DNA of 64,000 bases from positions 248,001 to 312,000 of the forward strand of contig NZ_JAAAKV010000005.1 in assembly GCF_009905725.1 (NCBI RefSeq). Direction: 5' to 3'. Under the pieces are notes generated by a model. It saw only the letters and a program-made list of their open reading frames with translations, did no database searches and was not told the DNA's origin. The DNA is from Emticicia sp. CRIBPO. GTDB taxonomy: Bacteria > Bacteroidota > Bacteroidia > Cytophagales > Spirosomataceae. Positions 3,757 to 16,277 of this stretch are shown here, piece after piece. The translations under genes and the position numbers were made by a program. Position 1 is the first letter of the stretch, and every line of letters begins with the position of its first letter.

Positions 3757-3782
3757 GTAGCGGGAGAAGTGCTACAACCTGC
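3757..3782 (-). repeat. Degenerate copy of the initiator tRNA 3' end (possible att remnant)
   Basis: These 26 bases match 16204-16229, the T-arm and acceptor 3' end of the initiator tRNA gene, at 21 positions, in the same orientation. The first ten bases, GTAGCGGGAG, are identical. No further tRNA sequence follows towards higher coordinates. The copy begins five bases beyond the bidirectional terminator. Together with the real tRNA it brackets the fructan locus. The region from 3783 to 4125 holds no supportable gene. Confidence 0.5.
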
Positions 3783-4125
3783 TTAATCTTATCCCTCTCC
3801 AAATCTTGTCAAAATGACGTCATCTGTGCAATTTTAATGCTATATCTGGTGATTTTGTACACCCTCACCATTAAGCTAAAGATAATAGGTCGTTTAAAAC
3901 CTGGATGCAAGATTAAGTTTAACCTCTAAACTTTGTGCCCTTATTTCAACTCATCGAAAAACATGGACTGAAGCAATCTGATCGTACAGCTAATAAAAAA
4001 TGATTTTGAATTATTTAATGTGTATGTAGTTTCAGTATGTTGTCTAAAATTGGTTTTTAATTTTCTGAAGATTCTTCATATGTAACATTTTTAAAAAAAA
4101 CACCTCTTTTTTTTAAAAATACAAA

Positions 4126-4245
4126 TTACACTGTAAGTGTAACTGGTTGATTATAAGTGTATTTGTGCTTGATTGAGATTGATCTGAAATTTAATTCTTT
4201 TGACACTATTTCGAAAAAAGAACAGTAAATACCGTGATAAGTTTG
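4126..4245 (+). promoter_or_regulatory. Likely operator and promoter of the fructan operon
   Basis: TTACACT-GTA-AGTGTAA (4126-4142) is a perfect 7-base inverted repeat. Its right arm is also the start of a tandem direct repeat: TGTAAGTGTA at 4132-4141 and TATAAGTGTA at 4152-4161, with AAGTGTA spaced exactly 20 bases apart (two helical turns) and both units ending in TTGAT. Tandem direct repeats are the usual target of the AraC-type domains of hybrid two-component regulators. A -7 box TAAGTTTG is at 4238-4245 without a good TTG at the right distance, as expected for an activated promoter. Transcription would start near 4250. Confidence 0.5.
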
Positions 4246-4252
4246 TTGAAAA

Positions 4253-5602
4253 ATGATTCAATTATTTATGACAAACAAAAAGGTTTTTTTCTGGGCTTTT
4301 ACTGTAGCTCTTGGTGGTTTTTTATTTGGATTTGATACCGCTGTCATATCCGGTGCTGAGAAATCCATTCAACAACTGTGGAGTTTGAATACCTTCGAGC
4401 ACGGTCTTACCGTCTCCATTGCATTAATAGGTACAGTAGTAGGATCCTTAACTGGAGCAATACCATCCGATCGTTTTGGCCGAAAGGCCACCTTATTTGC
4501 TGTAGCTGTTCTTTATCTGGTTTCTTCAGTCGGTACAGCCATGGCCACTGACTGGGTTACTTTTCTGCTCTTCCGCTTTCTTGGCGGAATAGGAGTTGGT
4601 ATTTCATCTGTTGCTGCCCCACTTTACATTTCAGAGATTTCCCCTGCCCGTTCAAGAGGGAGGTTAGTGGCCATGTTTCAGTTTAATGTAGTATTCGGGA
4701 TACTGGTTGCTTATCTGTCCAACTATTTGTTGGTTGGATTTGGGGAGAATGATTGGCGTTGGATGCTTGGTGTTCAGGCATTTCCATCTGTAGTTTTCTT
4801 AGTGGCCATATTATTTGTTCCTGAAAGTCCAAGGTGGTTGATCACAAACAAGGGTGAATTTAAAGAAGCACAAAGAATATTGTCAGTAGCCAATGATGAG
4901 TCTGAAGCGAAGAAAATCCTGTCTGACATTCTTTTGTCCGCTGAATCTTCCTCAAAAGAAGGTGGAAAACCATCGATATTTTCTACACAATATAAACTTC
5001 CGGTCTTACTTGCCTTACTATTTGCATTTTTTAACCAGGTTTCAGGAATCAATGCGATCATTTATTACGCCCCAAGAATTTTTGAGATGGCCGGATTGGG
5101 TAAAAGCTCGGCATTGCTTTCTTCTGCAGGCATTGGCTTGATCAATTTCTGCTTCACTTTATTGGCCATTAACCTTATTGATCGTTTTGGTAGAAGAACG
5201 CTAATGTTTATCGGATCATTTGGATTAATTATTACTTTAGGTTTGGTGGCTTGGGCTTTTTACTCAGGTAACCTTGGCGGCTATTCTGTACCTATATACT
5301 TATTTGTGTATATAGCTTTCTTCGCACTCTCTCAAGGAGCAGTTATCTGGGTGTTCATCTCAGAGATATTTCCTAATCAGGTAAGGGCGGCAGGCCAGTC
5401 AATGGGAAGTTTCATGCACTGGTTACTGGCGGCCATTATTGCTTTCACTTTTCCTTACTTCACTGAAACACTCGGAGGGGGTAATACTTTTATGATTTTT
5501 TGCGGCATGATGATCCTTCAATTACTCTTCGTCTGGAAAATGATGCCTGAGACCAAGGGTACTTCACTTGAGCAAATTGAAAAAACATTGATTATACATT
5601 AA
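4253..5602 (+). CDS. MFS sugar porter (SP family), probable fructose importer
   Basis: A twelve-helix inner-membrane transporter of the sugar porter family that probably imports the monosaccharide released by the GH32 enzyme. Family marks are all present in order: GGFLFGFDTAVISGA in helix 1, DRFGRKA after helix 2, the segment RFLGGIGVGISSVAAPLYIS with EISPARSRGRLV, PESPRW at the end of the first half, NQVSGINAIIYYAPRIFE in helix 7, DRFGRRTL in the second half, and PETKGTSLEQIE at the C-terminus. The start is probably the ATG at 4268 (MTNKKVFF), since the -7 box at 4238-4245 puts the transcript start near 4250. It is the first gene of the operon, 10 bases before the kinase gene. Specificity for fructose is inferred from context. 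Confidence 0.85.
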   Translation: MIQLFMTNKKVFFWAFTVALGGFLFGFDTAVISGAEKSIQQLWSLNTFEHGLTVSIALIGTVVGSLTGAIPSDRFGRKATLFAVAVLYLVSSVGTAMATDWVTFLLFRFLGGIGVGISSVAAPLYISEISPARSRGRLVAMFQFNVVFGILVAYLSNYLLVGFGENDWRWMLGVQAFPSVVFLVAILFVPESPRWLITNKGEFKEAQRILSVANDESEAKKILSDILLSAESSSKEGGKPSIFSTQYKLPVLLALLFAFFNQVSGINAIIYYAPRIFEMAGLGKSSALLSSAGIGLINFCFTLLAINLIDRFGRRTLMFIGSFGLIITLGLVAWAFYSGNLGGYSVPIYLFVYIAFFALSQGAVIWVFISEIFPNQVRAAGQSMGSFMHWLLAAIIAFTFPYFTETLGGGNTFMIFCGMMILQLLFVWKMMPETKGTSLEQIEKTLIIH

Positions 5603-15959: not shown

Positions 15960-16151
15960 TTGCTTAAGACATTGGTTATGGGGGGAGTTATTAAATAATC
16001 TGTTAAGCCAGATGGTAAGAGTATTTTGATAAGTTCTGATTCTGCTGTCGATTTAATCCCTCGTTTTTCGCACAAGGAAATCAAATTTTTATGCGTCCCA
16101 CAAGTTTTTGGCTTGATCCTCCTTGATCCCTTGTTGCAATGAATTTGTTGT

Positions 16152-16193
16152 ACCAAACAAAAAAGCAGCTACGTTTTTTATTCGTAACTGCTT
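16152..16193 (-). terminator. Terminator of the initiator tRNA gene
   Basis: On the minus strand AAGCAGTTACG (16193-16183) pairs with CGTAGCTGCTT (16173-16163), with one G-T pair, and is followed by a T-rich run. The stretch 15960-16150 between the regulator gene and this hairpin shows nothing else. Confidence 0.8.
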
Positions 16194-16204
16194 AATAATA
16201 TGTG

Positions 16205-16277
16205 TAGCGGGAGCAGGACTCGAACCTGCGACCTTTGGGTTATGAGCCCAACGAGCTGCCAACTGCTCCATCCCGCG
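16205..16277 (-). tRNA. Initiator tRNA-Met (anticodon CAT)
   Basis: A 73-base cloverleaf on the minus strand: acceptor CGCGGGA with TCCCGCT, D arm GAGC/GCTC, anticodon stem TTGGG/CCCAA with loop CTCATAA, T arm GCAGG-TTCGAGT-CCTGC, discriminator A. It is the initiator rather than the elongator because the first acceptor pair is a mismatch (C opposite T) and the anticodon stem ends in three G-C pairs. CCA is not encoded. It has its own promoter (16289-16318) and terminator. Its 3' end faces the fructan locus. Confidence 0.95.

Follow-up and report, generated by a model that had tools for sequence, protein, structure and literature searches.

A fructan-type operon beside the initiator tRNA gene of Emticicia sp. 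CRIBPO as a probable remnant of mobile DNA with ends resembling two classes of element

How did an operon of the kind associated with fructan use come to lie directly against the initiator tRNA gene of a bacterium? The question is raised by a 64,000-nucleotide stretch of the genome of Emticicia sp. CRIBPO (the window, G000:C35:248001-312000, where G000 is this genome and other G numbers are compared genomes), in which a 12.4-kilobase (kb) block at 3757-16203 carries a SusC/SusD-GH32 operon and its regulator up to the 3′ end of the tRNA gene. We put at about 0.75 the probability that this block is the remnant of mobile DNA integrated at that 3′ end with the operon as cargo, most likely two stacked elements that have fused. 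The names class I and class II, used below for the two types of integrase and element concerned, were coined in this analysis.

The geometry of the locus is that of tRNA-targeted integration. ARAGORN reports a single tRNA in the window, tRNA-Met(CAT), at 16204-16277 on the minus strand, or 16205-16277 once an extra C is dropped, and its initiator type, already recognised in a preliminary description of this DNA, can be read from the absence of a Watson-Crick pair at 1-72 and the three G-C pairs of the anticodon stem. That description had also reported a 26-base direct repeat, and a recount agrees with it: 3757-3782 and 16204-16229 agree in 21 of their 26 bases and run in the same direction, with all of the outermost ten bases matching. 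The repeat exceeds chance, since the best match to the 26-mer in 200 first-order Markov sequences (64 kb, one strand) was never above 18/26; the second-best match inside the window, on both strands, is 17/26. A displaced tRNA 3′ fragment in the same orientation is therefore present at the end of the block far from the complete tRNA gene. The terminator hairpin beyond the left repeat is likewise borne out, with A- and T-runs flanking it on both sides and a scan entry on the minus strand. The terminator claimed for the present tRNA on the island side stands in part, as a hairpin at 16163-16173/16183-16193 is evident in the sequence but absent from the terminator-scan listing, we think because its 9-base loop exceeds the 8-base limit of the scan.

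The left junction resembles that of class I elements. A congener (G003) carries a 5.7-kb element that encodes a tyrosine recombinase (Pfam Phage_integrase) and is bounded on one side by the initiator tRNA and on the other by the site GTAGCGGGAACAGTGCTAACACCTACTTAAT, which matches the window's left junction GTAGCGGGAGAAGTGCTACAACCTGCTTAAT, with the same element arm in both. G035, of a different genus, also has this site, next to an integrase that is 68% identical to that of G003, and its initiator tRNA is 36.5 kb off in the expected orientation. Because these two sites, each with a recombinase beside it, have only about 13 bases in common with the tRNA, the remainder being element arm, most mismatches of the window's 26-base repeat probably represent the element's own arm in a site of normal shape. 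The earlier reading of this imperfection as degradation, and hence as age, mostly falls away, although one base of the window site may have been changed by decay. Furthermore, an attachment-site pattern built from the G003 and window sites, with up to two mismatches allowed, occurs in three of 150 family genomes, namely the window genome, G003 and G035, the last of which was not used in building it; a reversed control pattern occurs in none. Without its 10-base core, the left end scores z 3.3 against G003 (12/300 shuffles as good) and 2.7 against G035 (11/300), and below zero (-0.3 and -0.4) against two class II left ends, all z values in this study being rough as the shuffles preserve long segments.

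Outside the G003 element, the flanking DNA agrees at 572 of 596 bases with a stretch of another congener (G009) that continues to the tRNA region with no element in between; for this element, a filled and an unfilled site thus both exist in the genus. The G009 flank reaches a degenerate tRNA copy before the tRNA, so the two genomes form an imperfect before/after pair. The class I elements known to us (G003 and G035; also G048, G093, G017, G060, G134 and G080) are like the window in left attachment site and in place. They differ in having an integrase, placed some 220-310 bases inward of the left site, mostly paired arm repeats, and other cargo; the window has neither the integrase nor the arm pair, and no class I right end. 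The other genes of the G003 element have almost no match in Pfam or PHROGs, and those of the other elements include a restriction-modification enzyme (G048) and an Ig/cadherin-domain protein (G093) by Pfam, and one G017 gene with primase/helicase-like matches by PHROGs.

The right end points elsewhere. The bases adjoining the window tRNA align to class II right ends, with G068 over 16088-16199 (112 bases; z 5.3, 2/300 shuffles as good) and with G089 over 16131-16199 (z 4.7, 0/300), whereas against five class I right ends z is at most 1.0. The motif GTTGTACC stands upstream of the integrase in all eight class II loci and in none of 30 class I loci, these being the loci kept from the integrase searches, not every match, and the arm scan being strand-aware. 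In class II loci it is doubled as TGTTGTACC with 11-base spacing; the window has one good TGTTGTACC arm and a worn second one. As the left end scores against G003 and G035, and the right end against class II but not class I elements, the two ends of the block most likely belong to different element classes. The claim of tRNA-targeted integration in the preliminary description is thus retained for its geometry and gains the likeness of the ends, but its view of one insertion gives way to probably fused remains of two.

Class II elements lie at the initiator tRNA in G068 and, split between two contigs, in G089. On the left they are bounded by 48 bases copied from the 3′ half of the tRNA, which points to crossover near the anticodon loop; a comparable 49-base copy occurs in G027, 1.9 kb away from the tRNA. 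The window is like them in its right end, with terminator and TGTTGTACC arm; it has no such 48-base copy and no class II integrase. By eye, G068 has the class II element inside and seemingly a class I-type terminator just beyond its left site. As a separate observation, a class II right end at the end of G089:C2 (L177) abuts a different tRNA, elongator tRNA-Met-like by eye, and the initiator tRNA may not be the only target of class II elements.

The preliminary description held that an initiator tRNA would be an unusual target, which is not the case in this family. A class I integrase lies on the 3′ side of the gene, in the right orientation and within 40 kb, in at least eight of 145 genomes (the eight named above), as judged by comparing integrase and tRNA positions by hand. 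Of the 150 genomes, these 145 match the tRNA at E 1e-8, 134 of them over nearly its full length. Class I integrase counts are lower bounds, as the best 12 candidates were scored in many genomes, and G088 was left out because its distant integrase (35%), 332 bases past one of three tRNA copies, has the opposite orientation. In all eight genomes a tRNA-like core lies outside the integrase and follows the genome's own tRNA for at least 13 bases; in G060, for example, the tRNA reads TAGCAGGAG and the displaced core reads the same. Most family genomes have a single match to the initiator tRNA gene.

In the literature searched, from which subscription papers were mostly absent, no description of an initiator or fMet tRNA as an integration site was found, which is no proof of absence. 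Crossover sub-sites at the T-stem/junction ("J") and at the anticodon ("A") are known for tRNA islands generally, according to the Islander work (PMC4383910). Islands as defined there have an intact tRNA at one end and a same-orientation displaced 3′ fragment at the other, like the block described here, and "J" and "A" sub-sites as well as tandem arrays are represented among the elements of this family. The window block differs from those islands in having no integrase, so that it fails the Islander integrase filter, only ten identical bases, and ends seemingly of two classes.

Composition also sets the block apart. The six long open reading frames (ORFs) between the repeats have a GC content at third codon positions (GC3) of 0.371-0.380, while 73 other ORFs of at least 150 amino acids in the surrounding 108 kb have a mean of 0.485 (standard deviation 0.047), and all but one of them exceed 0.385. 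In 100,000 gene-order shuffles, six low-GC3 ORFs never fell in a row, the block has the lowest GC among all 12.4-kb windows of the 108 kb, and composition shifts between the block and the flanking genes on both sides. By comparison, a further GH32 gene that this genome carries outside the island has a GC3 of 0.524. In eight regions around operon or GH32 relatives in other genomes, mean operon GC3 equals or exceeds that of the flanks in five and falls below it in the other three, by roughly 0.02, 0.02 and 0.06; the window operon lies about 0.11 below its flanks.

The relationships of the cargo do not appear to follow those of its host. GH32 is 57-63% identical in 13 family genomes of other genera (the search covered 61 genomes, including three from the window's genus), whereas eight of nine congeners have a match of at most 54% and G001 has none. 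Identity of era, the gene on the other side of the tRNA, is 77-82% in nine congeners and 66-77% in the other-genus loci fetched. GH32 is thus closer to other genera than to congeners, unlike era. More weakly, SusD is closer to some other genera, with 71% and 74% in G013 and G052, at most 68% in other genomes outside the genus and 66-68% in congeners (two programs). This incongruence, set against an era that is closest in congeners, speaks for a transfer of the operon between genera. Moreover, among the genomes compared, only this one has the operon at the tRNA. No GH32 match lies on the tRNA contig in nine congeners (G001 having no GH32 match and G007 no tRNA match); outside the genus, 0.46 Mb or more separates operon and initiator tRNA where the two share a contig (G055, G013, G046), and they are on different contigs in nine genomes, the tRNA of G062 being unlisted. 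Similarly, no initiator tRNA occurs in eight regions that surround relatives of the operon or of its GH32, seven from the family and one (G498) from outside it. The gene order MFS-kinase-SusC-SusD-GH32 is retained in several relatives. The ends, the composition and the incongruence of GH32 together uphold the preliminary idea of an island at the initiator tRNA 3′ end.

A mechanism consistent with these features would involve integration at the tRNA 3′ end by tyrosine recombinases, the operon and regulator being carried as cargo. A class I element, with an integrase like those of G003 and G035 and crossover in the acceptor/T-stem end, would have come first and left the displaced end at 3757, an order suggested by the fact that every new insertion lands next to the tRNA and, by eye, seemingly still preserved in G068. 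A class II element, with TGTTGTACC arms and crossover near the anticodon loop, would then have entered the same tRNA and given it the present terminator and the flank at 16088-16203. A deletion between the two would account for the loss of both recombinases and of the inner ends and would have left the operon immobile, so that the block looks chimeric, with the outer end of one insertion and the inner end of a later one. We infer the order of events, the deletion, and which element brought the operon. The flank at 3711-3756 weakly resembles class II right ends (z 2.5-2.9 against G089, the outer flank of G035 and the window's own right end), and on this likeness an older insertion layer may lie to the left of 3757. 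At a more general level, we give about even weight, for and against, to the proposal that the initiator tRNA is a stacked landing site for two classes of tyrosine recombinase at two sub-sites, and that deletions joining their ends lock cargo beside an essential gene.

Other histories could produce a similar locus. A single class I element with a TGTTGTACC-using recombinase might have integrated once with the operon and lost its recombinase later, without any fusion. This would be simpler; arm repeats and right ends vary among class I elements, and the left arm region of the window is gone, so its two arms are not comparable. It nevertheless appears unlikely, as GTTGTACC marks every class II integrase kept and no class I integrase, the right-end likeness to class II extends over 112 bases in G068, and G035 and G068 look, by eye, like stacked insertions at the initiator tRNA. 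Considerably less plausible is an origin without site-specific recombination, in which the left repeat would be a chance match or a duplicated tRNA 3′ end and the operon would have arrived by homologous or illegitimate recombination. The absence of a recombinase agrees with it, as do degenerate copies of the tRNA 3′ half with a terminator downstream of the initiator tRNA at eight of 48 distinct loci; but these copies extend deeper into the tRNA and mostly carry a T-loop insert, unlike 3757-3782, the window site matches integrase-bearing elements past its tRNA-like part, and composition changes at both borders of the block.

The operon could also be native to the genus, its place at the tRNA being old or due to a local move and the likenesses of the ends being left by elements that have come and gone. 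Related operons do occur in the family and, judged by SusD and an adjoining GH32, in five of nine congeners elsewhere in the genome, and G000 has a single SusD of this kind at E 1e-100. This history is the least probable of all in our judgement, given the congeners' tRNA contigs without a GH32 match, a GH32 closer to other genera than to congeners when era is not, and a uniform GC3 unlike that of the neighbours.

Several results weigh against the history of integration and fusion that we favour. The window site has ten bases in common with the tRNA, compared with at least 13 in the eight class I elements; its left end scores weakly against G093 (z 2.3) and at most 1.5 against six other class I-type left ends; and the tail at 3788-3883 alone is non-significant against G003 (44/300 shuffles equally good), the roughness of the z values applying here too. 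On the right, G104 has the same terminator at its tRNA (z 4.05) without arm repeats or a visible element, so the terminator is not a strict class II mark. No integrase is found among the block ORFs, nor any fragment of the two integrases tried (best tblastn match in the window E 0.42), which agrees with the preliminary description, and the genome as a whole has no class I match at E 1e-30 and no class II match at E 1e-40; the block is for this reason a remnant, not an active island. An inner remnant of the presumed second junction, sought in the island, was not found (best 24/48), and the tRNA regions of the relatives compared, none of which has the left flank, yielded no empty site flanked as in the window. 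With regard to composition, a free-ended GC segmentation chose a higher-GC segment at 34001-42400 and not the island, and just right of the window, at C35:312001-332000 (L320), six of 17 ORFs have a GC3 at or below 0.385, possibly as another acquired block; composition alone is therefore no proof of foreign origin. The operon is also not foreign to the genus, as SusD at 66-68% with an adjoining GH32 match occurs in G003, G004, G005, G006 and G008, always on a different contig from the tRNA, and the island copy might be such a relative, moved or replaced. A SusC search for a donor in 345 genomes of the class found none, the best among the matches listed being 66%, 65% and 63%, with 12 genomes at E <=1e-200 and two candidates scored per genome among those matches.

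The left flank gives little help in reconstructing the ancestral order. The preliminary description had called the 414-amino-acid gene at 2447-3691 DUF4153 and proposed to look for it beside the tRNA in relatives that lack the operon. At E 0.001 it has no match among Pfam or NCBIfam models, and although it is found in 143 of 222 family genomes (E <=1e-20), G000 and G001 are the only ones in the genus. It cannot be regarded as a conserved neighbour, being present in one of nine congeners and away from the tRNA there, and the proposed junction was not recovered, as no relative whose tRNA region was compared has this left flank. Around the 414-amino-acid gene, 76 named loci, some of them short, have no initiator-like tRNA adjoining, and L200 has two about 5 kb away. 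When flank genes of congeners were sought in the 48 kb left of the block, one weak match (28%) was found and otherwise just era, on the right. Genus g27 and other loci gave scattered paralogues on the left side and one four-gene match with G012 at -8.1 to -4.9 kb. In general, the left side of the tRNA (window 1-3691 and G000:C35:204001-248000) has almost no gene order in common with the relatives compared. On the right, a large ORF, sulfatase-like by eye, lies between tRNA and era in the four congeners whose ORFs were read (G003, G006, G008 and G009) and is absent from that place in the window and in the g27 genomes G035, G068, G089 and G104; since these five lack it, we take the adjacent era/tRNA pair as ancestral.

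The features of the locus are collected in Table 1. All six long ORFs of the block lie on the plus strand, and their assignment by Pfam and NCBIfam confirms the earlier view of the contents as a fructan-type operon plus regulator. A SusC/SusD pair, a GH32 gene and a sensor-regulator are present, which is the gene content of a fructan polysaccharide-utilisation locus, and we infer that the operon serves fructan use. No NCBIfam model reached its cut-off for the PfkB-family kinase. The fructan utilisation loci of Bacteroides thetaiotaomicron comprise a SusC/SusD pair, GH32, a sugar kinase and a hybrid two-component sensor with a periplasmic sugar-binding domain. The window block has the same components and differs from those loci in having one GH32 gene only and in lying on a tRNA-bounded island.

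Table 1. Coordinates of the block, its putative ends and its neighbours in the window
Position	Strand	Feature	Basis
3711-3756	-	Outer flank with terminator hairpin (3726-3753), at the expected place of the ancestral tRNA terminator	Hairpin scan
3757-3787	+	Putative left attachment site (displaced tRNA 3′ end and element arm), class I type	21/26 to tRNA; pattern search
3788-3883	+	Rest of left end, aligning to left end of G003 element (suggestive only)	Alignment
4253-5602	+	Sugar porter (MFS), GC3 0.373	Pfam Sugar_tr 2.5e-112; TIGR00879
5613-6518	+	PfkB-family sugar kinase, probable fructokinase, GC3 0.371	Pfam PfkB 3.8e-44
6550-9705	+	SusC-type TonB-dependent transporter, GC3 0.378	TIGR04056 2.2e-232
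9724-11436	+	SusD-type glycan-binding lipoprotein, GC3 0.380	Pfam SusD_RagB 8.7e-42
11505-13004	+	GH32 fructan/sucrose hydrolase, GC3 0.378	Pfam Glyco_hydro_32N 2.2e-97
13200-15959	+	Hybrid two-component regulator (periplasmic sugar-binding domain, kinase, receiver, AraC domain), GC3 0.373	Pfam domains
16088-16203	-	Class II-type right end: arm site TGTTGTACC (16146-16154), worn second arm, hairpin 16163-16173/16183-16193	G068/G089 alignment
16205-16277	-	Initiator tRNA-Met gene, putative integration target	ARAGORN
16451-17347	+	era, divergent neighbour on 5′ side of tRNA	NF000908; same era/tRNA pair in G035, G068, G089, G104

The degenerate tRNA copies mentioned above form a separate observation on this target. 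One to three copies of the tRNA 3′ half, each with a terminator, follow the initiator tRNA at L038, L040, L174, L137, L144, L154, L155 and L159, the window not being among these loci, with a tandem spacing of 104-135 bases; a ninth match, L200, was not counted, being a complete second tRNA. In most copies the T-loop is replaced by a GC-rich insert, which is alike within a genome and different between genera. Searches of four loci gave no Rfam match beyond the true tRNA. The match between the outer flank of the G003 element and G009 (L035:7403-8001; L040 near 4800-5045) extends as far as a degenerate copy of this kind, and degenerate copies and element insertions may be related.

To summarize, the block would represent a junction-level case of a glycan-use operon that was carried to a tRNA gene and then immobilised there. 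In this family, integration has repeatedly targeted the initiator tRNA gene, which is essential and mostly matched once only, and the attachment sites are defined sharply enough to be searched for. The attachment-site pattern, together with the arm repeats, would allow other worn islands to be recognised where the recombinase is gone.

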